This document shows positions 37,345 to 63,163 of a DNA stretch of 64,000 nt, one piece after another. This stretch comes from a virus: positions 42,227 through 106,226 of the IMG/VR virus record IMGVR_UViG_3300044630_005137, one strand, 5' to 3'. Every line of letters begins with the position of its first letter. Position 1 is the first letter of the stretch. The translations under genes and the position numbers were made by a program. The notes beneath the pieces are model-generated. The model searched no databases. It saw only the letters and a program-made list of their open reading frames with translations, and had not been told where the DNA came from.

Positions 37345-38061
37345 CTAGTTTGGAATAAAAACGCCATCTACGAATTTACCAGTGTTAAGCCAAAACGAAG
37401 GAACCATATATTTAGATCCGCCTTTTATAAGGTGTGCTGTATGACTATATGGATCTGTTGAAGGAAAGATTATTACGCTTCCAGCCTTCGGCTTAACGTG
37501 AAACATAATTCTATCATGATTAAGTGGGCTATCAAAATCTTCTGCAGCGGCATCATCTGTAGAAGTCAATACTCCATCTTTTACATTAAAAGATATTTCT
37601 CCGCCTTCGTAATCATCATTTAAATACATTACCATAGAATACCTAAGTCTTCTATCCCCCTCTTGCTGATCAAAGTGGGATCCCATAAAAGTTCCAGGCA
37701 TGTATTTTTTAATTGCTGTATCTGTCATTAAAATTATCTCAGCATCATCACCGATTTTTGAAGCATAATCTTCACAGACATTTTTCATACCATCAAATAT
37801 CTCATTGAAAATATAGTTGCAATCATCTATAACATCTTCGGATATATTTTTTTCTATATCTTCAGAAGACAAACACTTTATTCTTTTGTGTGATCCATAA
37901 ATGTACATTTGTCCACTACATGCACCCCACTCTTCCCAGGGGGTGATGAAGCTTGAGTATTTATCAGATTCTGTTGATTCGATTAAATCAACAAGCTTTT
38001 TAGGCTCCTTTATAACATCAGTGTAGTAATACACCTTATCAAATAATTCTTCGCTTTTCAT
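37345..38061 (-). CDS. 2OG-Fe(II) oxygenase (prolyl-4-hydroxylase type), 238 aa
   Basis: An apparently complete double-stranded beta-helix dioxygenase site is present: His129-x-Asp131 (GSHFDQQ), distal His207 (YSHTAH) and Lys217 (GSKYMVPSFW), which would bind the 2OG carboxylate. The signature YLNDDYEGGEISF lies between them. Enzymes of this family couple 2OG decarboxylation to hydroxylation of protein Pro, or other residues or small molecules. The ribosome site AGGAGGAAGT precedes the ATG. It is the closest paralogue by eye of the 269-aa enzyme next to it. Confidence 0.88.
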   Translation of the reverse strand: MKSEELFDKVYYYTDVIKEPKKLVDLIESTESDKYSSFITPWEEWGACSGQMYIYGSHKRIKCLSSEDIEKNISEDVIDDCNYIFNEIFDGMKNVCEDYASKIGDDAEIILMTDTAIKKYMPGTFMGSHFDQQEGDRRLRYSMVMYLNDDYEGGEISFNVKDGVLTSTDDAAAEDFDSPLNHDRIMFHVKPKAGSVIIFPSTDPYSHTAHLIKGGSKYMVPSFWLNTGKFVDGVFIPN

Positions 38062-38106
38062 ACTTCCTCCTACTTATAACTTTTGTAATAATTGTACCAG
38101 ATATTG

Positions 38107-38916
38107 TTACTTAAATAAATCTTCTTTATCTGGGTAAACAAACTCTGGCTCCCAATTGGGATCTTGCTTAAACAAAACATCTTCTCCAGTTGGATCTATC
38201 CAAAACATCGGAAGCATGTATTTCCATCCTGATTTTACTTCATGCGCTGTATGACTAAATGGTGAGGGTGATGGGAATATAACTATGCTACCAGCTTCTG
38301 GTTTAATATAGAAGTCGTACAATCCCTCATTAGCAGGATGCATAAGGTCACCCTGCAAAGAAAGTTCTGTGGCAGTCAAAACTCCTTCTTTTATAGAAAA
38401 AGAAAGCTCTCCGCCTTCATAGTCATCATTTGGCCAAACTACTAAAGAATAAAGAAGCCTTGTGTCACCTTCTTGAGAGTCGTGATGAACTCCCATATAG
38501 TTGCCAGCCCTATATCTATGAACACCAAACTGTTCTAATAGGGTAAGTTCTTTATCTATGCCTTGTTCTTTTTTATAATCTTCACATACATATCTTATGG
38601 CATTAAATAATGGGTCTCTTATTTTAATAAACATTTCTTTTGTTTCTTCAGAAACGTCTTTATCTATGTTATATACATTATTTAATAAACATAATTTTTT
38701 ATATCCATAAACATATGGGTGCCCCATAGATCTGTTTTCGTCTACATCCCACTGATTCCACGGTGTTAATACAGGGTATATATCAGGATTATTTTCAGAA
38801 TCATTTACAAGATCTAGCCATTCTTTTACATTAGGAATAGCATTTCTATAATAATAAACTTGCGGGTGAAGCTCTTCTCTAATCATTCCGTTTTCTAATA
38901 CAGTCGTTTTTATCAT
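38107..38916 (-). CDS. 2OG-Fe(II) oxygenase, 269 aa
   Basis: The metal triad His144-x-Asp146 (GVHHDSQEGD) and His222 (FSHTAHEV), with Lys232 for the cosubstrate, is present. It has the motif WPNDDYEGGELSF and IKPEAGSIVIFPS. The N-terminal half (YYYRNAIPNVKEWLDLV) is the variable, probably substrate-selecting region. It overlaps the 250-aa oxygenase by four bases (ATGA). Its close similarity to the 238-aa neighbour suggests tandem duplication. Confidence 0.88.
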   Translation of the reverse strand: MIKTTVLENGMIREELHPQVYYYRNAIPNVKEWLDLVNDSENNPDIYPVLTPWNQWDVDENRSMGHPYVYGYKKLCLLNNVYNIDKDVSEETKEMFIKIRDPLFNAIRYVCEDYKKEQGIDKELTLLEQFGVHRYRAGNYMGVHHDSQEGDTRLLYSLVVWPNDDYEGGELSFSIKEGVLTATELSLQGDLMHPANEGLYDFYIKPEAGSIVIFPSPSPFSHTAHEVKSGWKYMLPMFWIDPTGEDVLFKQDPNWEPEFVYPDKEDLFK

Positions 38917-39665
38917 TCTATCTCCAATGCTACTTCTTTTTTAGCAGTTTGATCTGGTCCAGGCTTTAGTCTTTCACCTCTTGCTTTAAGTTCTGCCCAA
39001 AGCTCTGCGTCCTCTGCCTGTCTTTTTCTTTGATCTGCTATATCGGTTTCCCACATAGCCTGCTTTTCTTCGCTATAAACAGCCTCTTCATTATCCCAAA
39101 ATGATCCTATAGTTATTCTTGTTCCTTTAGTAATCATTTGTACTTCATGTATATTGTGATGACCTCCAGCAAATGCTGCTAGCATTCCAGTTTTTGGCTG
39201 CAAAGAAATATCATGATCTCTAAAGTTTAAAACGCCACCTTCAAAATCATCATTTAAATAAAGAAATGCTGCCCACTTGCTTCTTTCAAAAGAATTATAC
39301 TCTGGTGAGTCTATTGGTGTATTGTCTGAATGATAACCAGCGTATGCTCCCTCTACCCATTTTTGTGCATGATAGCTAACTAGTCTAACTTTATCACCTC
39401 TACATATCTCTGTAGCTTCCTGTATTTTATCTTGAAGTGTAATAAAAAAATCAGGCGATAAACCAAACTTTTCTTTATCTTCATCGTCTGGCAAGTTAGA
39501 TGCAAATGAGTCATAAAATGATATTGGTGCCCACGGAAGAGTTCCTTTTTCTACAGAATGTTCCCAGTATTTAATAACTTTTTCGCAATCTTCTGGACTA
39601 AGAAAGTTTTCAAAAAACACTATGTCTTCTTTAATTCTATTTTGATTTTCTAAATTAAATGTCAT
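38913..39665 (-). CDS. 2OG-Fe(II) oxygenase, 250 aa
   Basis: His112-x-Asp114 (GYHSDNT), His173 (HHNIHEV) and Arg183 (GTRITIGSFW) form a full site. The motif LYLNDDFEGGVLNFRDHD is present. Here Arg rather than Lys binds 2OG, as in several P4H-type enzymes. The C-terminal 60 residues are a charged helical tail (AMWETDIADQRKRQAEDAEL) not seen in its neighbours. That tail may dock it to a partner protein. It overlaps both adjacent oxygenase genes. Confidence 0.87.
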   Translation of the reverse strand: MTFNLENQNRIKEDIVFFENFLSPEDCEKVIKYWEHSVEKGTLPWAPISFYDSFASNLPDDEDKEKFGLSPDFFITLQDKIQEATEICRGDKVRLVSYHAQKWVEGAYAGYHSDNTPIDSPEYNSFERSKWAAFLYLNDDFEGGVLNFRDHDISLQPKTGMLAAFAGGHHNIHEVQMITKGTRITIGSFWDNEEAVYSEEKQAMWETDIADQRKRQAEDAELWAELKARGERLKPGPDQTAKKEVALEIE

Positions 39666-40509
39666 TTAAATTAATCCTTTCTAGCTTTTTAAGTTCATCA
39701 TAGTTTATTGTTTGATAAGCTCCAGACTTTCTTTCTTCTTTAGTTCTGGCAATTTCCATTTCTTTCCATATCTCTTTACCATAAAGCTTTTCGTTTTCTA
39801 GCCATTCTTTCGAGCCAGGATAAAATCTTACCCAATGATTTCTTACAAAATATTTAGGTGTGCCCTTTACCTTTTCAACTCCATGCATATAGAATTGACC
39901 AGCATCAGAAAGGAAATCTGGGTCTCCTGCTGGGAACAAAAGTACATCACCCTTTTCTGGCTTGTAATAGAATGTTTTGTTGTCTACCAAGAATGTCAGG
40001 CCACCGCCTTCGTAATCTCCATTTAAATACATTGTACATGTAAATGTAAACTTGTATCCTCTAAAGTCATGATAATCTCTCTGATAGTCTGTGTGTACAT
40101 GCATAGCGAGATCGGACTCTTCTATACCGCCTTCAACTTCATACTTGCATATAGAAGGACCCATTCTTTTCCATAGTTGAGTTAGAGATCCTTCTTCTTC
40201 ATTAAAAACTTCAGCATCACGATCAATTGGTACACCAAATGTTTCTGCATACTGATTTGTTGTTTTATCAAATACTTCAATTAGCTCTTCCCAGCAAAGT
40301 CTTTCTAGTGATGTTCTTTCAGAAGATTCAACAGAGTTGTCAAACTGATCCGCCTCTTTGCCAAAAGTATACCAACCATGCCAATTTAAAGCAGATCCTT
40401 CTGGGTTCTTTTCAGAATCCATAATTGTTTTTGTTAACAAATCAATATCTTTCCAGGGATTTTTGAATACCCATATTTTTGGGTATATCTCTCTATATTT
40501 AAGTGTCAT
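39655..40509 (-). CDS. 2OG-Fe(II) oxygenase, 284 aa
   Basis: The site is His139-x-Asp141 (HVHTDYQRDY) and His209 (FYMHGVEKV), with a basic residue in GTPKYFVRNHW (Lys219 or Arg223). A long insertion (EEEGSLTQLWKRMGPSICKY) precedes the first His. The N-terminus starts YREIYPKIWVFKNPWKDIDL. The C-terminus carries about 60 extra mostly charged residues. It overlaps the next gene upstream by four bases. Confidence 0.85.
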   Translation of the reverse strand: MTLKYREIYPKIWVFKNPWKDIDLLTKTIMDSEKNPEGSALNWHGWYTFGKEADQFDNSVESSERTSLERLCWEELIEVFDKTTNQYAETFGVPIDRDAEVFNEEEGSLTQLWKRMGPSICKYEVEGGIEESDLAMHVHTDYQRDYHDFRGYKFTFTCTMYLNGDYEGGGLTFLVDNKTFYYKPEKGDVLLFPAGDPDFLSDAGQFYMHGVEKVKGTPKYFVRNHWVRFYPGSKEWLENEKLYGKEIWKEMEIARTKEERKSGAYQTINYDELKKLERINLNDI

Positions 40510-41195
40510 GGCTTTATATCACCAGTATGCTCAAGTATCTGCCAAAAGAATGGTGACGTATATCTTCCTCCAGAAATAATTGGTCTAACTCCGTGAATAT
40601 AACCTTTATCACCTGGGAAAAAGTATGCTGATCCGCCAACGGGTTTAAATTCTATTCCTTGAACAGGGAAAAACAATTCTCCTCCTTCGTAATCATCGTT
40701 AAAATAAAATAATGAAGCGATATCGTAATGAGGAAAATCATTAGGTGTACCTGCGTCTGGGCCTTCATGCAGCTCTTTGTCTGCATGAGGATCTTGTCTT
40801 GATCCTACAGGCCATCTAACAATTGCTGGTCCTGTAGCCTGAACCTTTACATTAAAAAACTTTTCTACCTCTACTTGCAGTCTTGATATAAGATTATCAA
40901 CAACATATACAATATCTGGATCTGCGGAAATTTCCATAGATTTACGTGTGCAAACTCTATCGAACCATGCGTTTGCATCATAGATTACTGTACCATTTTC
41001 ATTTACGTGAGAATCAGTAATATCCCATGTTTTATTGGTTTTTGCAAAGTTGGTGAGTCTTGTTCTTTCTTGGTCTGTTAAAAAGTTTTTTAGCTCTACA
41101 ATATTTTCTGGACCTGTGCCAAAAAAGCCAGATGGTGTTATGGACCCTAGAGATCTGTAGTCATGAGTGTTATTAGTATTTAATCTTTGTTCCAT
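40506..41195 (-). CDS. 2OG-Fe(II) oxygenase, 229 aa
   Basis: The ATG at 41,195 follows GAAGGAAG and the stop of the upstream gene. A longer frame to 41,297 lies inside that gene and is rejected. The site is His137-x-Asp139 (RQDPHADKEL), His201 (GYIHGVRP) and Arg211 (GGRYTSPFFW). Notable motifs are FYFNDDYEGGELFF and VRWPVGSRQDP. Its N-terminal region (VELKNFLTDQERTRLTNFAK) is typical of collagen-type P4H-like phage enzymes. Confidence 0.87.
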   Translation of the reverse strand: MEQRLNTNNTHDYRSLGSITPSGFFGTGPENIVELKNFLTDQERTRLTNFAKTNKTWDITDSHVNENGTVIYDANAWFDRVCTRKSMEISADPDIVYVVDNLISRLQVEVEKFFNVKVQATGPAIVRWPVGSRQDPHADKELHEGPDAGTPNDFPHYDIASLFYFNDDYEGGELFFPVQGIEFKPVGGSAYFFPGDKGYIHGVRPIISGGRYTSPFFWQILEHTGDIKP

Positions 41196-41196
41196 A

Positions 41197-41916
41197 TTAT
41201 TTATACTTCCTTCTTGTCCAAAATCTTTTTTTATAGACTCCACCTTCTGGTGTTCTAAAAATTTCTGATGTTTCCATTGCTTTTTGCATAATATCAATTG
41301 GCTTATGAAATATCAACTCTGATTCCCAGTCTTCCCTTTTAAATGGTATTATCTGCAAATATGGTGTTCCTGCAGGTACAATCCCAGCAAATCCATTTTT
41401 TATAAAAAATGGTATTAATCCAGATGTTGTAACCTTATCACTGTCTATTATACCACCGACTGTAAGCCAAGGTAAGTCAAAATGATTTATCGGCTGTATG
41501 TATAAGGAGCTATATCCTTCTGGAAGCTGTGGAGCCCAATTGGCATACCAATGAAAATGATTTTTTTCATAACCAGGAGGAACTTGAAATCCAGTAGACT
41601 CTGGTCTTTCTCCTACAAAATCATCAAATTTTAAAGGCACCTTTGCTTTTATCCTATTGTTTTTTTCATAAAATTCTATGTCGCATGGGGTTACAAGTGT
41701 ATATCCAGATGTAAATGTATCTAGCATGGCTGGACATGCTTTAAAGTTTAGCATTTTGCCGCCGTCTTTATTTGCATTAGAAACTGGATTCCCATAAAAA
41801 TCTTTTATATATATGTCAGCATCTTGCCACCACTTAGGAATAACTCTTGCAGCTGGGCATGGAGCGGTTTCGACATCATTGTAATGCTTGTTTGAATGAA
41901 ATATTATTTTGTTCAT
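41197..41916 (-). CDS. Unknown protein in oxygenase cluster, 239 aa
   Basis: The sequence starts MNKIIFHSNKHYNDVETAPC, with RVIPKWWQDADIYIKD and FKACPAMLDTFTSGYTLVTP-CDIEFYEKNN. It later has TTSGLIPFFIKNGFAGIVPA and a basic C-terminus (GGVYKKRFWTRRKYK). It shares a pattern (SGY/LGW...P-x-DIEF...IPFF/AW...IPANTP/VPAGTP...IIP) with the next gene, so the two are distant paralogues. Similar proteins appear near 2OG oxygenase genes in other phages, to my recollection. No catalytic residues can be named. It overlaps the upstream gene by four bases. Confidence 0.6.
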   Translation of the reverse strand: MNKIIFHSNKHYNDVETAPCPAARVIPKWWQDADIYIKDFYGNPVSNANKDGGKMLNFKACPAMLDTFTSGYTLVTPCDIEFYEKNNRIKAKVPLKFDDFVGERPESTGFQVPPGYEKNHFHWYANWAPQLPEGYSSLYIQPINHFDLPWLTVGGIIDSDKVTTSGLIPFFIKNGFAGIVPAGTPYLQIIPFKREDWESELIFHKPIDIMQKAMETSEIFRTPEGGVYKKRFWTRRKYK

Positions 41917-42647
41917 TGGGGTATTCCACAGCCTTCTGGTCCAGTTAAAGAAGTTTCATCATTTTTTAATCGTAACGATTTTACTTCATGAGATCCTATT
42001 TTATTGTTTTTATGGTCTACAGCATTTCTGTAAAAATCAGTCCACTTTCCAGATTTATTAATATCGCTAACAATTTTGCCATAGTCTTCTTTTGGAAAAA
42101 AATCTATTGGTAAATCCTTATATCCTTTTATTGTTGCTACTGAATTGTTTAAATTAGATAAAGATATTGGGATAATTGATGCAACTGGAGTATTTGCTGG
42201 AATAGTAATAACTTCATTGGCCTTTGTTATTCTCCATGCAATTGGAAAAGTGCCTTTAAAAAACGAAGTGCTTATTAGTGTTGTAAAAGGCCAAACACCA
42301 TCTATTGGCCAGTTTGGTGTTGGCATTGCTAGCATGCTTACATTTTCTTCAGTTTTTATAACTAAATTTGTATTAAAGCTAATTGTTGCATTGGCTCTTG
42401 ATGTTGAAACGTAATCCTTACCTTTTAAAACTTTAACGTGAGTGTCTGTTGAATCTGATATGCCGTCCCAAATAAATTCAATATCTACTGGAAAAGAAAC
42501 TCCCCATCCCAAGGTATTTGAAAGGCTTACTGGAAAACAATGATAGGCATGCTTATCAGATGTTTCATCCATCCATTCTCTTTTTACTCCTAGAGGCTGA
42601 ATATCTGCTGATTGATTTGGATAAACTTTGTATACATCAAAGTTCAT
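41913..42647 (-). CDS. Unknown protein (DUF6065-like), 244 aa
   Basis: The chain begins MNFDVYKVYPNQSADIQPLG with REWMDETSDKHAYHCFPVSL, then GWGVSFPVDIEFIWDG and VITIPANTPVASIIPISLSN. This resembles, from memory, the DUF6065 pattern of short beta-rich proteins with W-M-D and HCxP motifs. It is a distant relative of the 239-aa neighbour. It is co-translated with an oxygenase upstream (TAATG). A role in peptide or hydroxylated-substrate handling is speculative. Confidence 0.55.
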   Translation of the reverse strand: MNFDVYKVYPNQSADIQPLGVKREWMDETSDKHAYHCFPVSLSNTLGWGVSFPVDIEFIWDGISDSTDTHVKVLKGKDYVSTSRANATISFNTNLVIKTEENVSMLAMPTPNWPIDGVWPFTTLISTSFFKGTFPIAWRITKANEVITIPANTPVASIIPISLSNLNNSVATIKGYKDLPIDFFPKEDYGKIVSDINKSGKWTDFYRNAVDHKNNKIGSHEVKSLRLKNDETSLTGPEGCGIPQ

Positions 42648-43288
42648 CAGTACCCATCTTTCATTGATTTATCAGACATAAACTGTCTATAAAAAGACTC
42701 TGTATGAGTTGCATCGTTATAATCTGTCATAGTAACAATTGAATATTTTAGTCCAGATTTTACTGGAAGGGCGGCATGAGAGAACAAATATGTAGATGGG
42801 AATATATACAGATCTCCAGCCTTTGGCTTAATAGTTAAATCCAGTTTATCAAATCTTAATCCGCCTTCTTCATAATCATCATTAATATAAGCAACCATTG
42901 ATACTGTTGATATATATGACCAACCATGATCTGAATGATAAGAGAAATGTTGACCTTCTCCATATTTAATAAAATTCATTGCTTCCCAATATTTTAATTC
43001 AATATTGTAAAAAGAAGAATAATCATTTAATGCAATTGCCTGTGCATCATAAACATCTTGCCAAATTGCATCTACTTCTTGATTGTATTTATCAGGAATA
43101 TGGTTTTCAAATTTTTTCCATTTAAAGTCTACACAGTCTCTATAGTCAGGCATTTTTTCTCTATATCCGACGGTTGCTTCTTTCCAAGTATGCATTCCTT
43201 TAGAATCAAGTATTGCACTTTCAAGCCTGTTGATTATATCCATTTCTGGAGTAATTACATTTCTATAAACCCAAAGTCCTGGGAACAA
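42647..43288 (-). CDS. 2OG-Fe(II) oxygenase, 213 aa
   Basis: This is the shortest intact enzyme of the main cluster. The site is His118-x-Asp120 (FSYHSDHGW), His171 (FSHAALPV) and Lys181 (GLKYSIV). The motif YINDDYEEGGLRF is present. The start appears to be TTG at 43,288, four bases after the previous stop and behind AAGAAGAG. No ATG is available at that position. It begins (M)FPGLWVYRNVITPEMDIINR. Confidence 0.85.
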   Translation of the reverse strand: MFPGLWVYRNVITPEMDIINRLESAILDSKGMHTWKEATVGYREKMPDYRDCVDFKWKKFENHIPDKYNQEVDAIWQDVYDAQAIALNDYSSFYNIELKYWEAMNFIKYGEGQHFSYHSDHGWSYISTVSMVAYINDDYEEGGLRFDKLDLTIKPKAGDLYIFPSTYLFSHAALPVKSGLKYSIVTMTDYNDATHTESFYRQFMSDKSMKDGY

Positions 43289-57267: not shown

Positions 57268-57305
57268 AAACCCCAATCGGATCCGCCTCTGATTGGGGTT
57301 TTTAT
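57268..57305. terminator. Bidirectional intrinsic terminator
   Basis: AAACCCCAATC and GATTGGGGTTT form an 11-bp stem with a 12-nt loop. It has TTTTTATTTT after it in the rightward sense, and GTTTATCG in the leftward sense. It ends the small rightward operon and the leftward oxygenase gene that stops at 57,302. Confidence 0.82.
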
Positions 57306-57871
57306 TTTCTGTCTTCATGCACAAAAGCTGCATAGACTATTCTTTCTCCATTGTAAAATTTATTTACAGCATGAGAATAATCAAGATTTCCAGGATGAAC
57401 AAGTAAAGAACCAGCTTTTGGCTTAATCGATATATCTTTATTTACATATACTATTTCTCCACCATCAAAATCGTCAGTAATAAAAATAACAATTCCATGA
57501 GATACAAAGGTCGGTCCTTTTTGATCTTCTTCCCAATCATATGAGGCATCATCCTGATGAGGTTGCATCAAATATTTATCATTAGGGTTATCTGAAGTAT
57601 GCCTGTATTTTGTAAAATCTATTTGTTCAGTAGAAGGTATTCTAATTTTTCTATTATTAGACTCTAACATAGTCTTTAATTTTTCAATATACTCAAACCA
57701 TAAATCTATAACATCTTTATTTTTTCCTACTTTAAGCGTAAGATGAACTGGATGCTCGTTGTCTTCAATATATGAATTATTGTTTATTTCATTTATAAAT
57801 AGGACTAAATCTTCTTTAGATATAAAGTTTTCTATATATATAATATTTTCATCGATATCAATCTTATTCAC
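57302..57871 (-). CDS. 2OG-Fe(II) oxygenase, 189 aa, probable GTG start
   Basis: A GTG at 57,871 lies seven bases after AGGAG. A TTG at 57,874 is closer. The site is His105-x-Asp107 (QPHQDDAS), His167 (YSHAVNKF) and Arg177 (GERIVYAAF). Motif VIFITDDFDGGEIVY and VNKDISIKPKAGSLLVHPGN. The N-terminal half (DIDENIIYIENFISKEDLVL) is short. It overlaps the 250-aa oxygenase by eight bases and ends in the bidirectional terminator. Compact, probably free-standing enzyme. Confidence 0.85.
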   Translation of the reverse strand: MNKIDIDENIIYIENFISKEDLVLFINEINNNSYIEDNEHPVHLTLKVGKNKDVIDLWFEYIEKLKTMLESNNRKIRIPSTEQIDFTKYRHTSDNPNDKYLMQPHQDDASYDWEEDQKGPTFVSHGIVIFITDDFDGGEIVYVNKDISIKPKAGSLLVHPGNLDYSHAVNKFYNGERIVYAAFVHEDRK

Positions 57872-58616
57872 CAAAGATCTCCTTTTTCTTTTTTTCTACC
57901 GTTTCTAAATTATAAAAATCATTTGTGATATTTTCTGGAACCTCAACCTTTTGTGACCCATACGGCACAAATCCTTGAGATGGTCCCATTCTCCAAAAAT
58001 GTGGAGTTATGTATTTAATACCTATATTAGGAACTGCTTCGTGTTCATTATCTAGGTCGCAGGATTTAAACATAACTATACTTCCAGGCTCTGGCTTTAT
58101 TTGTAAATTATAATTTGGGAAATTTAAATATCCATCAAAATAATCATCATTATAGTATATGACAAATGAGTGCTCTAAGTCGTCATAAGGACAATCTGTA
58201 TGCAAACCCCTGGATTGCATAGAGCCGTATCTACCAATAACATATCCAGGCGATGGTATTCTGGGATTTAAGATAGTATCTATACCTAAAATTTTTGCGT
58301 ATTGGTTTGAGCATTCTACAACAGCGTTGTTAATAGATTCAAACACCCAATGACTTTCAATATTTTTCTTATTTGGGTCATATATATTTGGGTCATATAT
58401 GCATTTAGCTAAACCAAAATCTTCTGGTGTAATTCCTAATAATTCCCAGCCTCTTTTTTGTTCTAATGAAAACGCATATTGATTTCCCCACGGAAGCCAA
58501 TCAGTTATAATATCACTTGAAACAGAATCTATATATTTAATAATGTCATTTGAGTTAGGTATTGCATTCTTAAAATAAAAAACTTTATCGTTGTATATTT
58601 CAACTTCTATAGACAT
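57864..58616 (-). CDS. 2OG-Fe(II) oxygenase, 250 aa
   Basis: The site is His139-x-Asp141 (GLHTDCPYDD), His192 (NEHEAVPN) and Lys201 (GIKYITPHFW). The signature YYNDDYFDGYLNF lacks the usual second Gly. Before the first His it has NPRIPSPGYVIGRYGSMQSR. Ribosome site AAGGAGATAT. It lies in the second oxygenase group with the 189-aa and 239-aa enzymes. Confidence 0.86.
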   Translation of the reverse strand: MSIEVEIYNDKVFYFKNAIPNSNDIIKYIDSVSSDIITDWLPWGNQYAFSLEQKRGWELLGITPEDFGLAKCIYDPNIYDPNKKNIESHWVFESINNAVVECSNQYAKILGIDTILNPRIPSPGYVIGRYGSMQSRGLHTDCPYDDLEHSFVIYYNDDYFDGYLNFPNYNLQIKPEPGSIVMFKSCDLDNEHEAVPNIGIKYITPHFWRMGPSQGFVPYGSQKVEVPENITNDFYNLETVEKKKKEIFGE

Positions 58617-58668
58617 AATATATCTCCTTATTGATTGTTAAAAAGTGCGGCGAAAAGTGAGCCGAAAA

Positions 58669-58818
58669 TTAGAGACCATCATTTTCATCTTCGTATAAAC
58701 TTCTCAAATACTCCATATTAGCTAGACGTTGTTCCTCAGACCCTATTTTATGCTCTACTATAACACCTGCCCACATAATAAAAAGGAGGGTCGAAATAGG
58801 AACATCATAAGCTACCAT
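58669..58818 (-). CDS. Small membrane protein, 49 aa, leaderless (55 aa if started at 58,836)
   Basis: From the ATG at 58,818: MVAYDVPISTLLFIMWAGVI then VEHKIGSEEQRLANMEYLRS and an acidic end LYEDENDGL. One membrane segment (residues 5-20) precedes a cytosolic helix. The ATG is exactly seven bases after TATAAT. The earlier in-frame ATG at 58,836 lies inside the promoter. No function is known. Confidence 0.5.
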   Translation of the reverse strand: MVAYDVPISTLLFIMWAGVIVEHKIGSEEQRLANMEYLRSLYEDENDGL

Positions 58819-58824
58819 ATTAGT

Positions 58825-58853
58825 ATTATACTCCATGTTTCACGTGAAACCAA
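58825..58853 (-). promoter_or_regulatory. Leaderless promoter TTGGTT-17-TATAAT with parS-like spacer
   Basis: -35 TTGGTT (58,848-58,853) and -10 TATAAT (58,825-58,830), spacer 17 bp on the minus strand. The predicted start is the A of the ATG at 58,818. Most of the 14-bp palindrome GTTTCACGTGAAAC lies in the spacer, and the rest overlaps the -35 box. Confidence 0.6.
58836..58851 (+). promoter_or_regulatory. parS-like palindrome TGTTTCACGTGAAACC
   Basis: 15 of 16 bases match the bacterial chromosome centromere parS consensus TGTTTCACGTGAAACA, the ParB binding site. The inner 14 bp are a perfect palindrome. The site spans the -35/spacer region of a phage promoter, so ParB or another protein binding here could also control transcription. 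Confidence 0.65.
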
Positions 58854-58859
58854 GTAGGC

Positions 58860-58964
58860 CTATATATTAAACAATAGGAAGATCGATATAGCAAGAAAGC
58901 AAAGAGCAATAAATCTGATCTTCTTTTTTCTTGGCCATTCAGATGGCACTCTTACATTATCCAT
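58860..58964 (-). CDS. Small membrane protein, 34 aa
   Basis: MDNVRVPSEWPRKKKIRFIA then LCFLAISIFLLFNI: a basic N-terminal stretch and one membrane helix ending at the C-terminus. Ribosome site AAAGGAG is eight bases before the ATG. It lies between a tRNA and the parS-like element. The function is unknown. Membrane orientation by the positive-inside rule puts the N-terminus in the cytoplasm. Confidence 0.55.
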   Translation of the reverse strand: MDNVRVPSEWPRKKKIRFIALCFLAISIFLLFNI

Positions 58965-58978
58965 ATTCTACTCCTTTG

Positions 58979-59053
58979 TAGGCCTATTGGGATTTGAACC
59001 CAAAGTCGATTGCATATAAGACAATTGCTTTAACCAGGTTAAGCTATAGGCCC
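58979..59053 (-). tRNA. tRNA-Ile (anticodon UAU)
   Basis: A full cloverleaf is present: acceptor GGGCCTA/TAGGCCT (one G-U pair), D-arm GCTT...AAGC, anticodon stem ATTGT/GCAAT with loop CTTATAT (anticodon TAT), variable CGACT, T-arm TTGGG-TTCAAAT-CCCAA. It has 75 nt including the discriminator and no encoded CCA. It reads AUA directly, a codon that is common in this AT-rich genome. Confidence 0.88.
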
Positions 59054-59058
59054 TTATA

Positions 59059-59136
59059 TTAGCCTATTATCTGGTATATGATACCAAGGATAAAAGTAAT
59101 GACAGCTATTATGGCTACTGCAATAAGAGTCTTCAT
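59059..59136 (-). CDS. Very small membrane protein, 25 aa
   Basis: MKTLIAVAIIAVITFILGII YQIIG (one membrane helix, 19 hydrophobic residues). Ribosome-like GGCGGGATAG precedes the ATG. The gene ends five bases before the tRNA 5' end, so both may be in one transcript. Support is the helix and start context only. Confidence 0.4.
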   Translation of the reverse strand: MKTLIAVAIIAVITFILGIIYQIIG

Positions 59137-59368
59137 CTTTCTATCCCGCCTTTTCTTATGTATTTTCTTTATGTTTTTTAATTTTTTATCTGGGGATATT
59201 AGATTTTAGGAAAGCCCCCCTACCCCCCAAATTTTTTCTTTTTGGAAAGATAGAGAAGCACTCCTAAAACGATATTCTCAGATGTTATCTGGTACATATT
59301 GAGTTTCAGGGTAAGCCCCCACAAAGCAAACTTAGTGTAGCATTTTTTATTTTACAAAGTCAATAGTT
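59137..59368. other. AT-rich gap with C-runs, no gene seen
   Basis: Between the 25-aa gene and the 239-aa oxygenase. It has two C6 runs near 59,214-59,228 and a run of T. No open frame with a ribosome site, no clear promoter and no terminator was seen. Confidence 0.5.
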
Positions 59369-60088
59369 CTATAAATATTTATGTGGAGTTGTGTAAAATC
59401 CTTCAGGCAAATCATCTTCCCCAAATATTCCATTTACAGCACTAGACATTTTAATTGAATCTATGCCTTCATATAGCTGATCATTTTTTCTTAATTCCTC
59501 AGCTTCAGGAAGTGATGCAAATCCAGCTACAATATATCTGACTTTATCGCCTCTTACATCTTCTGTATAGTGTGCATATTCTTCCCATCCAGGATGTAAC
59601 AGCAAATCTCCTTTTTGTGGTTTATATTGAAAGCCAATATTTGGATAAGATATTTCACCACCGTCAAAATTGCTTATATAATGAGTAACGCCAAATACGC
59701 ATTTATTGTCCATCCCCATTGATTCCACCAAATTATCTGCATGTAGGAACATAGACTGGCCTTTGGTCATTCTATGAACAGAGTTCATGCTTTCGACCCA
59801 AAGCTCTTGTCTAAAGAGCTCCTGTAGCCTTATACGCATATGTTTTAGCTCTGCGTCCAACTCTTTATCTTCTACAAAGAAGAATTTCCCATGCCACCAT
59901 TCTCGCTTGTTTTTGTCCCACCAAATATCTTCTCCAAAAGATTCTACATGGCTTACAAGCCTATCGCATAGATCATCTGATAACCAGTTTTTTAGTACAA
60001 CAATGTTTTTCTCAATTAGTACCGCATTAGGTTCTTTTTCTAATATTTGAGAAAGTTGTTTCTTAACTATAGATGCATATGGTTCCAT
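59369..60088 (-). CDS. 2OG-Fe(II) oxygenase, 239 aa, leaderless
   Basis: The ATG at 60,088 is exactly seven bases after TATAAT. A GTG at 60,103 lies in the promoter and is rejected. The site is His116-x-Asp118 (FLHADNLV), His173 (YAHYTEDV) and Arg184 (DKVRYIVAGF). The signature is HYISNFDGGEISYPNIGFQY. The N-terminal block (VVLKNWLSDDLCDRLVSHVE) is like collagen-type P4H-like proteins. It is the farthest upstream of the leftward oxygenases. Confidence 0.86.
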   Translation of the reverse strand: MEPYASIVKKQLSQILEKEPNAVLIEKNIVVLKNWLSDDLCDRLVSHVESFGEDIWWDKNKREWWHGKFFFVEDKELDAELKHMRIRLQELFRQELWVESMNSVHRMTKGQSMFLHADNLVESMGMDNKCVFGVTHYISNFDGGEISYPNIGFQYKPQKGDLLLHPGWEEYAHYTEDVRGDKVRYIVAGFASLPEAEELRKNDQLYEGIDSIKMSSAVNGIFGEDDLPEGFYTTPHKYL

Positions 60089-60094
60089 GCTCTT

Positions 60095-60122
60095 ATTATA
60101 CACCGCCCTATATTCTAGTCAA
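60095..60122 (-). promoter_or_regulatory. Strong leaderless promoter TTGACT-16-TATAAT
   Basis: TTGACT (60,117-60,122) and TATAAT (60,095-60,100), spacer 16 bp on the minus strand. The start point predicted from the hexamer is the ATG at 60,088. It is back to back with the rightward control region at 60.2-60.3 kb. Confidence 0.7.
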
Positions 60123-60228: not shown

Positions 60229-60244
60229 TGTGATGTATCTCACA
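60229..60244 (+). promoter_or_regulatory. CRP/GlxR-type site TGTGA-N6-TCACA (site 1)
   Basis: TGTGATGTATCTCACA is a perfect palindromic half-site pair for CRP-family regulators (GlxR in Actinobacteria). Its centre is 86 bp from the -10 centre of the promoter at 60,320. A near match TGTGACTTACACCACA lies at 60,254-60,269. Confidence 0.7.
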
Positions 60245-60302: not shown

Positions 60303-60325
60303 TTGTCAGACCCCCATGCTATGCT
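60303..60325 (+). promoter_or_regulatory. Early-type promoter 1: TTGTCA-N11-TATGCT
   Basis: TTGTCA (60,303-60,308) and a -10-like TATGCT (60,320-60,325), 11 bp apart. The leader that follows contains AACGAAAGG. This layout recurs at 60,562, 61,568, 62,682 and 63,141. Confidence 0.6.
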
Positions 60326-60507: not shown

Positions 60508-60523
60508 TGTGACTAAGGTCACA
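60508..60523 (+). promoter_or_regulatory. CRP/GlxR-type site (site 2)
   Basis: TGTGACTAAGGTCACA, perfect TGTGA-N6-TCACA, starts right after the stop of the 48-aa gene. Its centre is 66 bp from the -10 of promoter 2. Confidence 0.7.
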
Positions 60524-60561
60524 AAAATACTTTTGCGACACACCCCCCTAACCTCCCCAAT

Positions 60562-60584
60562 TTGTCAGACCCCCATGCTACAAT
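60562..60584 (+). promoter_or_regulatory. Early-type promoter 2: TTGTCA-N11-TACAAT
   Basis: TTGTCA (60,562-60,567) and TACAAT (60,579-60,584). The 20 bases TTTGTCAGACCCCCATGCTA are identical to promoter 1. The leader contains CAACGAAAGG. Confidence 0.62.
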
Positions 60585-61383: not shown

Positions 61384-61435
61384 CCTAACGGCGTGTCGGC
61401 TTGACATTGTCTAGCTGGCCCGCAAAAGAGCGGGG

Positions 61436-61465
61436 TTATCCACAGGGTTACGGGGGTTATCCACA
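61436..61465 (+). promoter_or_regulatory. Two perfect DnaA boxes, 21 bp apart (copy 1)
   Basis: TTATCCACA at 61,436-61,444 and again at 61,457-61,465, same orientation, 21 bp start to start (two helical turns). The second lies in the loop of GGGGGTT/AACCCCC. Candidate DnaA binding region of a replication origin or a DnaA-responsive promoter. Confidence 0.75.
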
Positions 61466-61503
61466 ACCCCCAGGTTTTGCAAGCACGACACGCCCGAGAT
61501 CCG

Positions 61504-61519
61504 TGTGATTTTTATCACA
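61504..61519 (+). promoter_or_regulatory. CRP/GlxR-type site (site 3)
   Basis: TGTGATTTTTATCACA, perfect TGTGA-N6-TCACA, centre 76 bp from the -10 of promoter 3. Confidence 0.7.
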
Positions 61520-61567
61520 TGACTTGAGCGTCTCACATCATGGACTTACTCGCTAGTAAGTATCTTT

Positions 61568-61590
61568 TTGTCGGTGGTATCGGCTATAAT
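61568..61590 (+). promoter_or_regulatory. Early-type promoter 3: TTGTCG-N11-TATAAT
   Basis: TTGTCG (61,568-61,573) and TATAAT (61,585-61,590), 11 bp apart. The leader carries AACGAAAAAGAAAGG before the ATG at 61,622. Confidence 0.65.
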
Positions 61591-61621
61591 TGCGGTATAA
61601 CGAAAAAGAAAGGTGGTCACC

Positions 61622-61798
61622 ATGACTACACTAAACACACTATGCAAGGCGCATGAGCCTCTTGTTTCCGCTATCTCCGAAATTGGAGATGAACAATTTA
61701 CCCTATGCATGATTTGCGATAGCAACATTGAGCGTTATTACTACGATAGCGACCCTGAGCAATTTCCTACATGGACAGATTGGTATGTGACTAAATGA
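61622..61798 (+). CDS. Small Cys-containing protein, 58 aa
   Basis: ATG at 61,622 after GAAAGGTGGTCACC. MTTLNTLCKAHEPLVSAISE, IGDEQFTLCMICDSNIERYY: Cys and C-x2-C with two further acidic patches. May form a zinc knuckle. It overlaps the next gene by four bases (ATGA). Confidence 0.6.
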   Translation: MTTLNTLCKAHEPLVSAISEIGDEQFTLCMICDSNIERYYYDSDPEQFPTWTDWYVTK

Positions 61799-61917
61799 GT
61801 ATTTGGACAAGGTTCGCTACTGTAAGCGATTACCCTAAAGGTATGATGAACGAGTGCGTGTGTGGGCAAGTAGTCCTAGCACCTAAGACACGACATGAGA
61901 ATTGCGAGAATAAATAA
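61795..61917 (+). CDS. Small Cys protein, 40 aa
   Basis: MSIWTRFATVSDYPKGMMNE CVCGQVVLAPKTRHENCENK: C-x-C and one more Cys near a His. It may be a tiny zinc-binding protein. Overlaps at both ends (ATGA, TAATG) with its neighbours. Confidence 0.5.
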   Translation: MSIWTRFATVSDYPKGMMNECVCGQVVLAPKTRHENCENK

Positions 61918-62081
61918 TGAGTACCTATGTACCAATTAAATCCGTATGTGGTGCGGTATCCACCACAATTAAAATGAACGACTATGACTTAAACCCTCAT
62001 GGCGTTATCTGTTGCGATAATTGCGAAAGCATTTTGTTATGCCGTAAGGCGTGGGACTTTCTTTATAAGGGGAATAAATAA
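61917..62081 (+). CDS. Small Cys-rich protein, 54 aa
   Basis: MSTYVPIKSVCGAVSTTIKM then NDYDLNPHGVICCDNCESIL LCRKAWDF. It holds five Cys, with CC-x2-C in a compact zinc-ribbon-like cluster (VICCDNCES). Its start overlaps the previous stop. Confidence 0.55.
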   Translation: MSTYVPIKSVCGAVSTTIKMNDYDLNPHGVICCDNCESILLCRKAWDFLYKGNK

Positions 62082-62221
62082 TGCCAGTTTTTAATTTTGA
62101 TTTATCCGTAACCATTGAGGACGATAATTTTGAGTCTGCCTTATCATGGTTAAAGGTTATTCCATTGGAACGCCTTGATTTTATTGTTGTCGATTATACA
62201 GAATTAGAGGTTAGCGAATGA
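62081..62221 (+). CDS. Small acidic protein, 46 aa
   Basis: MPVFNFDLSVTIEDDNFESA LSWLKVIPLERLDFIVVDYT ELEVSE: predominantly acidic, beta-alpha-beta pattern. Unknown. Coupled to both neighbours (TAATG, ATGA). Confidence 0.52.
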   Translation: MPVFNFDLSVTIEDDNFESALSWLKVIPLERLDFIVVDYTELEVSE

Positions 62222-62412
62222 AATCACAATTTGAGAAAGATTTAGAAATCAAAGAAAGTTTTATTGATTTACTAAATGAAATTTATCCAACTGTAAAAAT
62301 TGGTTATTCAACTTTTACACCCGCCGAAATCTTAGAGTGTTGCGACCCTGTTGCTTTTGCGATTGGTTTAGTAGAGCATGAAGATTATTTAGCAGAAATG
62401 GAAAATGAATAA
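62218..62412 (+). CDS. Small acidic protein, 64 aa
   Basis: MKSQFEKDLEIKESFIDLLN EIYPTVKIGYSTFTPAEILE CCDPVAFAIGLVEHEDYLAE. It is helical and acidic with a CC pair. No recognised motif. Possibly binds a host protein. ATGA start. Confidence 0.58.
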   Translation: MKSQFEKDLEIKESFIDLLNEIYPTVKIGYSTFTPAEILECCDPVAFAIGLVEHEDYLAEMENE

Positions 62413-62507
62413 TGGATTTTTTTGGATTTGAAAAAGCAATTGAAATTGATCATCTTACCGATGAGCAAATCTTAAAGCTTGAAGAAATTTTTAAAGATTT
62501 CGAATAA
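62412..62507 (+). CDS. Very small acidic protein, 31 aa
   Basis: MDFFGFEKAIEIDHLTDEQI LKLEEIFKDFE: an amphipathic acidic helix. Last gene of its operon; its start overlaps the previous stop (TAATG). Support comes from coupling and coding pattern. Confidence 0.45.
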   Translation: MDFFGFEKAIEIDHLTDEQILKLEEIFKDFE

Positions 62508-62557
62508 GTAACGGCGTGTCGGCTTGACAAAGCTGATGCGCCCGCAAAAGAGCGGGG

Positions 62558-62587
62558 TTATCCACAGGGTTACGGAGGTTATCCACA
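62558..62587 (+). promoter_or_regulatory. Two perfect DnaA boxes, 21 bp apart (copy 2)
   Basis: TTATCCACA at 62,558-62,566 and 62,579-62,587, same orientation and the same spacing as in copy 1. Confidence 0.75.
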
Positions 62588-62618
62588 ACCCCTGGAATTT
62601 GCGACACGCCCGAGATTT

Positions 62619-62634
62619 TGTGATTTTTATCACA
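62619..62634 (+). promoter_or_regulatory. CRP/GlxR-type site (site 4)
   Basis: TGTGATTTTTATCACA, identical to site 3, centre 75 bp from the -10 of promoter 4. Confidence 0.7.
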
Positions 62635-62681
62635 CGACTTGAGCGTCTCATTATTTGGAATTACTGGCTAGTAATTATCTT

Positions 62682-62704
62682 TTGTCAGTGCTATCCGCTA
62701 TAAT
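62682..62704 (+). promoter_or_regulatory. Early-type promoter 4: TTGTCA-N11-TATAAT
   Basis: TTGTCA (62,682-62,687) and TATAAT (62,699-62,704), 11 bp apart. The leader contains CAACAAACGAAAGG. Confidence 0.68.
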
Positions 62705-62736
62705 TGCTACTATCAACAAACGAAAGGTGACAACTA

Positions 62737-62949
62737 ATGTCAGCAAATGTCTATTCAATAGAAAGCCTACTTATAGGAAAAACTTATCACTCACGCACTT
62801 TAACAGGCGAAATAATTGACGCAGAAAAGTCTGATGTCTTTTATGGCGCAGGTTTGGAAAGTTATCGGGTTCAGGTTCGCCCACACTATCCCTCAGTATT
62901 TAATCTAAAAGATACTTATCGCTATCTATCAGTTAAGGTCAGTGACTAA
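62737..62949 (+). CDS. Small beta-rich protein, 70 aa
   Basis: MSANVYSIESLLIGKTYHSR, TLTGEIIDAEKSDVFYGAGL, then VQVRPHYPSVFNLKDTYRYL: an SH3-like or OB-like beta pattern. Its start follows CGAAAGGTGACAACTA. It is coupled to the next gene by TAATG. No function known. Confidence 0.6.
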   Translation: MSANVYSIESLLIGKTYHSRTLTGEIIDAEKSDVFYGAGLESYRVQVRPHYPSVFNLKDTYRYLSVKVSD

Positions 62950-63140: not shown

Positions 63141-63163
63141 ATGTCAGTGGGCTAGGCTATAAT
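63141..63163 (+). promoter_or_regulatory. Early-type promoter 5: (A)TGTCA-N11-TATAAT
   Basis: ATGTCA (63,141-63,146) and TATAAT (63,158-63,163), 11 bp apart. It starts right after the stop of the previous gene and lacks a CRP-type site, since the upstream region is coding. Leader AACAACAACGAAAGG. Confidence 0.58.

Follow-up and report, generated by a model that had tools for sequence, protein, structure and literature searches.

Two copies (A and B) of a DnaA-box element lie in the window analyzed here, a 64-kb stretch comprising bases 42227-106226 of a 106,226-base IMG/VR virus contig. Judged from sequence comparison, each copy is best read, with a probability of about 0.6, as the modular upstream control region of an early-type phage promoter that would draw on DnaA and PafBC of the host and on a CRP-type regulator. 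Each copy is about 100 bp long, begins a few bases past the stop codon of the preceding gene, and is followed on its 3' side by a CRP-type palindrome, a symmetric palindrome, a promoter, a ribosome-binding site, and a tiny ORF, in that order (Table 1).

Element anatomy and genomic setting

Every part listed in the sequence-only reading was found in both copies, namely GGCGTGTCG, the hairpins, a pair of perfect TTATCCACA boxes spaced 21 bp, and CGACACGCC in inverted orientation, and the claim that the element is repeated and kept as a unit while the intervening DNA drifts was borne out. The element was correctly reported but its extent was set too short, since the CRP palindrome and the promoter downstream are repeated as well. 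GGCGTGTCG occurs exactly four times in the 106-kb contig, once in each arm, and four of the five exact TTATCCACA boxes in the 64-kb window are those of copies A and B. In the palindrome between the CRP site and the promoter both halves differ together between the copies (ACTTACT/AGTAAGT in A, AATTACT/AGTAATT in B).

Table 1. Features of the two element copies and associated loci (positions refer to the window unless a locus is named)
Feature	Position	Strand	Remarks
Element copy A	61390..61494	+	
Copy A GGCGTGTCG	61390-61398		
Copy A hairpin H1	61399-61415		
Copy A TTGAC	61401-61405		
Copy A hairpin H2	61419-61434		CCCGC-AAAAGA-GCGGG
Copy A DnaA boxes	61436-61444, 61457-61465		
Copy A inverted CGACACGCC	61486-61494		
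CRP/GlxR-type palindrome TGTGATTTTTATCACA (copy A)	61504..61519	.	65 bp before promoter motif
Palindrome ACTTACTCGCTAGTAAGT (copy A)	61544..61561	.	
Promoter TTGTCGGTG-N8-TATAAT (copy A)	61568..61590	+	RecA-NDp/PafBC-type
Tiny ORF, MTTLNTLCKAHEP...	61622..61798	+	58 aa; 3' of copy A; conserved cluster of 5
Element copy B	62513..62610	+	
Copy B GGCGTGTCG	62513-62521		
Copy B hairpin H1	62522-62533		
Copy B hairpin H2	62541-62556		
Copy B DnaA boxes	62558-62566, 62579-62587		
Copy B CGACACGCC	62602-62610		
CRP/GlxR-type palindrome TGTGATTTTTATCACA (copy B)	62619..62634	.	64 bp before promoter motif
Palindrome AATTACTGGCTAGTAATT (copy B)	62659..62676	.	Counterpart of ACTTACTCGCTAGTAAGT
Promoter TTGTCAGTG-N8-TATAAT (copy B)	62682..62704	+	RecA-NDp/PafBC-type
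Tiny ORF, MSANVYSIESLL...	62737..62949	+	70 aa; 3' of copy B; conserved cluster of 10
Further PafBC-type promoter	60303..60325	+	CRP-type palindrome at 60229-60244
Further PafBC-type promoter	60562..60584	+	CRP-type palindrome at 60508-60523; CGACACACC at 60536-60544
Further PafBC-type promoter	63141..63163	+	No element or CRP site
2OG-Fe(II) oxygenase-type genes	37345-43288 and 57302-60103; L002:6351-8300		
Inverted DnaA-box pair TTATCCACA-N15-TGTGGATAA	L379:33727-33759		Yaboi (NC_048730)

The contig very probably belongs to a phage of actinobacteria, on account of its gene content and of portal and capsid proteins with 57-62% identity to those of Stanwilliamsviridae Streptomyces phages, and the phage probably infects freshwater members of that group. 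Its genes include those for polymerase III alpha, a DnaG-type primase, a DnaB-type helicase, RecA, and a ribonucleotide reductase. The 2OG-Fe(II) oxygenase-type genes form an unusual expansion, with about ten in one phage genome, and a tryptophan-halogenase-type gene of the phage (L003:2132-3655; Pfam PF04820, E 2e-103) adjoins a GlcNAc-transferase-type gene.

The element is widespread among viruses. At least 78 viral stretches match an exact 21-mer of it, at least 119 match GGCGTGTCGGCTTGAC, and 13 related genomes (105-117 kb) each contain one to four GGCGTGTCG-NN-TTGAC units. Within a genome these matches lie on one strand and within about 4 kb, the strand exception being the distant record G012, and where the phage is of the same type as that of the window, they make up arrays of same-strand promoters 5' of tiny genes. 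In about 2.1 Mb of related loci the pooled counts were 871 for GGCGTGTCG and 590 for the DnaA box, against 3 and 11 for the reversed patterns; both counts are biased upward by the use of parts of these strings in fetching the loci. A blastn comparison of the element with cultured phages returned no match. The composite element pattern had 0 matches in GTDB genomes, and thus no element-bearing prophage was found there.

The downstream promoter

Both copies precede a TTGTCRGTG-N8-TATAAT promoter, which agrees with tTGTCRgtg-8nt-TannnT, the RecA-NDp consensus published for the DNA-damage response that does not depend on LexA (PMC5656591). The activator of this response is PafBC (PMC8223512), which is triggered by single-stranded DNA (PMC11804915). 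Six of the seven matches to the motif in the contig stand at the starts of tiny plus-strand genes around the element region, and the minus strand of the contig has 0 matches. Across loci totaling about 2.1 Mb and chosen independently of the motif, 1315 matches were counted versus 3 for the reversed motif (300 versus 1 with the strict consensus). The resemblance to actinobacterial RecA-NDp/PafBC promoters extends to both sequence and spacing; the difference is that the promoters described here are located in a phage, stand in tandem before tiny genes, and are joined with CRP-type sites and DnaA boxes.

A candidate source of PafBC is present in the putative hosts. An adjacent pair of WYL genes was found in all nine of the streamlined freshwater-type actinobacterial genomes considered as candidate hosts, and in one of them a PDB sequence search matched the pair, in order, to PafB and PafC of 6sj9; NCBIfam gave the pair no PafBC name. 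The WYL gene was absent from the three phage genomes checked. The promoter is read as probably served by PafBC.

CRP-type palindromes and helical phasing

The palindromes upstream of the promoter have the form TGTGAN6TCACA and were assigned to the CRP/GlxR type on the basis of the GlxR consensus (PMC4254451). Among 551 non-redundant related promoters, such a palindrome was located 30-90 bp upstream in 302, compared with 1 after shuffling, and 267 of the 302 deviated by no more than 1 bp from a 10.5-bp register. Their starts are 34, 43-44, 54, 64-65, 75, and 86 bp upstream of the promoter, and an out-of-phase subgroup is found at 49-50 bp. The Rayleigh R at 10.5 bp was 0.67 (n = 201 exact sites), and since the p-values of circular tests overstate independence among related loci, the six distinct distances in 10-11 bp steps are the safer evidence. 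Phasing of this kind indicates a protein constrained to one helix face relative to the polymerase and favors double-stranded DNA as the working form. CRP/GlxR class I type promoters likewise have TGTGAN6TCACA upstream at positions separated by 10.5-bp steps, but here the site is coupled to a PafBC-type promoter and one subgroup is out of phase.

DnaA boxes and the question of an origin

The earlier proposal that the element is a compact DnaA-binding origin or a DnaA-titration element fared unevenly: a real repeated element is present and very probably binds host DnaA, and the origin is disfavored. Among the same 551 promoters, 37 of 43 same-strand adjacent box pairs are spaced 21 bp, and inverted pairs are 23 bp (33 times) or 24 bp (4 times) apart. 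The distance from the last box to the CRP site is 20-23 or 38-49 bp, on a 10.5-bp register. No such register was seen for the distances from DnaA boxes to the promoter, so a contact between DnaA and the polymerase is not implied.

The boxes are also exchanged. Among the orthologues of the gene that follows copy B, a DnaA-type element lies upstream in four phages (that of the window, L189, L190, and L194) and a GGCGTGTCG-type element in six (L188, L191, L193, L196, L197, and L200), and GGGGTTATCCACAGGGTTACGG and GGGGTCGGGCGTGTCGTTACGG swap at the same spot. Such swapping of protein sites as modules is more in keeping with a regulatory region than with an origin.

An origin at which host DnaA on the paired boxes would open the DNA or load helicase is accordingly regarded as unlikely, although the boxes are perfect, their 21-bp spacing recurs between dnaA and dnaN (the candidate oriC) of candidate host L358, and the element is near the divergence of two gene blocks. 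Several copies are present per genome, in tandem and every one before a promoter; each has only two boxes, and orthologous copies have none; the phage also encodes a polymerase III alpha, a primase, and a helicase of its own. No strongly AT-rich stretch that could serve for unwinding adjoins the boxes, the richest 60 bp (82% AT) being near 62226, about 0.3 kb away. Candidate host genomes L347 and L348 have four to five boxes upstream of dnaB (gene identity was checked in L348 only), and the host DnaA-box clusters share with the phage element the TTATCCACA boxes and the 21-bp direct pair (oriC of L358, dnaB of L348), whereas the phage element has a single pair, lacks the adjoining AT-rich unwinding stretch, and has its boxes replaced by GGCGTGTCG boxes in orthologues. 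The L347 region, matched to dnaB by similarity to L348, also carries a RecA-NDp-like TTGTCAGTG-N8-TATACA.

The origin reading gains some weight from the cultured Streptomyces relatives, in which an inverted DnaA-box pair is kept in a non-coding divergent region of about 900 bp (Stanwilliamsviridae phages L379 and L380-L383). The spacing of this pair is 12 in Wofford, and one box is altered in StarPlatinum; the conserved pair is a candidate for either an origin or a control region. Yaboi, a relative by portal and capsid, resembles the window phage in this pair and in its many tiny early-type genes with their own hairpin and promoter, but neither a PafBC-type motif nor an exact CRP palindrome was present in the 46 kb examined.

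Titration of the datA type, in which extra high-affinity boxes would pull DnaA off the host oriC and block host initiation, is rather improbable. It would account for perfect boxes in one to several pairs per genome and would need no precise position, but the sites are few before phage replication, and the fixed 21-bp spacing, the exchange with GGCGTGTCG boxes, and the tie to a promoter are left unexplained.

The GGCGTGTCG box and its possible readers

In 84,980 species genomes, GGCGTGTCG-NN-TTGAC-N17-TAnnnT was found in 65 stretches, mostly of Microbacterium or Agrococcus, and 16S rRNA, where located on the same stretch, begins mostly 263-302 bp downstream. In these two genera the rRNA promoters are marked by a conserved GGCGTGTCG directly before the -35 (L201, L207, L222, L223, and others). 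GGCGTGTCAGATTTGAC was found in two small Microbacteriaceae genomes, where 16S starts 281 bp past TTGAC. The Nanopelagicales were considered as a source of the rRNA-type box and rejected, the candidate genomes, assigned to that group by size only, having CGATTTGAC without GGCGTGT. Copies A and B share the upstream part, GGCGTGTCG-NN-TTGAC, with the rRNA operon promoters of Microbacterium and Agrococcus, but differ in being composite phage elements with no -10 17 bp past TTGAC. In other actinophage-like contigs (L166 and L179), GTAAC-N6-GTAAC (MtrA-like) and CGAAC-N4-GTTCG (LexA-box-like) were noted by eye beside GGCGTGTCG promoters.

The same promoter architecture might instead be read by phage regulators, such as a phage WhiB, acting at the promoter and the GGCGTGTCG boxes. 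All 14 genomes, the contig included, encode one WhiB; GGCGTGTCG contains GTGTC, which on the other strand reads as the WhiA core GACAC (PMC3781837); and WhiA and WhiB act together in Streptomyces (PMC4850268). This alternative is nevertheless quite improbable, as the promoter agrees with a host consensus (PMC5656591), the shortness of WhiA sites precludes a firm match, and GGCGTGTCG stands at cellular rRNA promoters, so that some host protein reads it there at least. WhiA itself was not accepted as the reader of GGCGTGTCG, the agreement being limited to the 5-bp core, and is kept as a weak idea.

Hairpins and RNA structure

Folding of the element is strong on either strand, with z-scores of about -4.1 to -4.6. 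Hairpins H1 and H2 co-vary across relatives, in that swapping halves between relatives weakens folding, and the native energy was reached by 0/1000 (H1) and 8/1000 (H2) permutations. A hairpin over the second DnaA box is perfect in the first copy and mismatched in the second. The inverted outer repeats reported earlier are present, but the GGCGTGTCG/CGACACGCC arms show about 20 one-sided variants and 0 compensated ones; they are therefore interpreted as protein sites in opposite orientation rather than as a stem. The three-way RNA junction suggested in the sequence-only reading was rejected, its closing stem showing only these uncompensated changes. A structured RNA or single-stranded DNA junction as the functional unit is thus very improbable despite the z-scores and the co-variation of H1 and H2, as the DnaA boxes match exactly and are replaced by GGCGTGTCG boxes in orthologues, and an Rfam search gave nothing significant. 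H1 and H2 are probably hairpins in the transcript of the upstream gene, acting as a terminator or in protection of the mRNA end; termination is a guess, because neither hairpin has a T-run.

Proposed mechanism and implications

If each copy is a promoter control region, host PafBC activated by single-stranded DNA would bring in the main RNA polymerase of the host, and a host CRP/GlxR-type protein on the right helix face would aid its recruitment. Host DnaA on two boxes two helical turns apart would tune the output to the replication and growth state, as would a host protein at GGCGTGTCG. Taken together, these inputs would let the phage switch the genes according to the replication, damage, and nutrient state of the host. 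The downstream genes would be early ones, to judge by their position and small size. The literature searched contained no description of phage use of sigma adaptation via such control regions, and nothing relevant was found on actinophage early promoters with DnaA boxes and CRP sites. The broader proposal, that a widespread family of freshwater actinophages computes early expression via DnaA, a CRP-type regulator, an rRNA-promoter factor, and PafBC activated by single-stranded DNA, is tentative and falls somewhat short of even odds.

The analysis yields specific sites, open to testing, in phages of freshwater bacteria that are abundant, together with several hundred naturally occurring CRP-to-promoter spacings as a data set, and it highlights the 9-bp rRNA-promoter motif GGCGTGTCG as a putative protein site. 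If the reading is true, hundreds of uncultured freshwater phages would share a control logic that taps host PafBC and DnaA.
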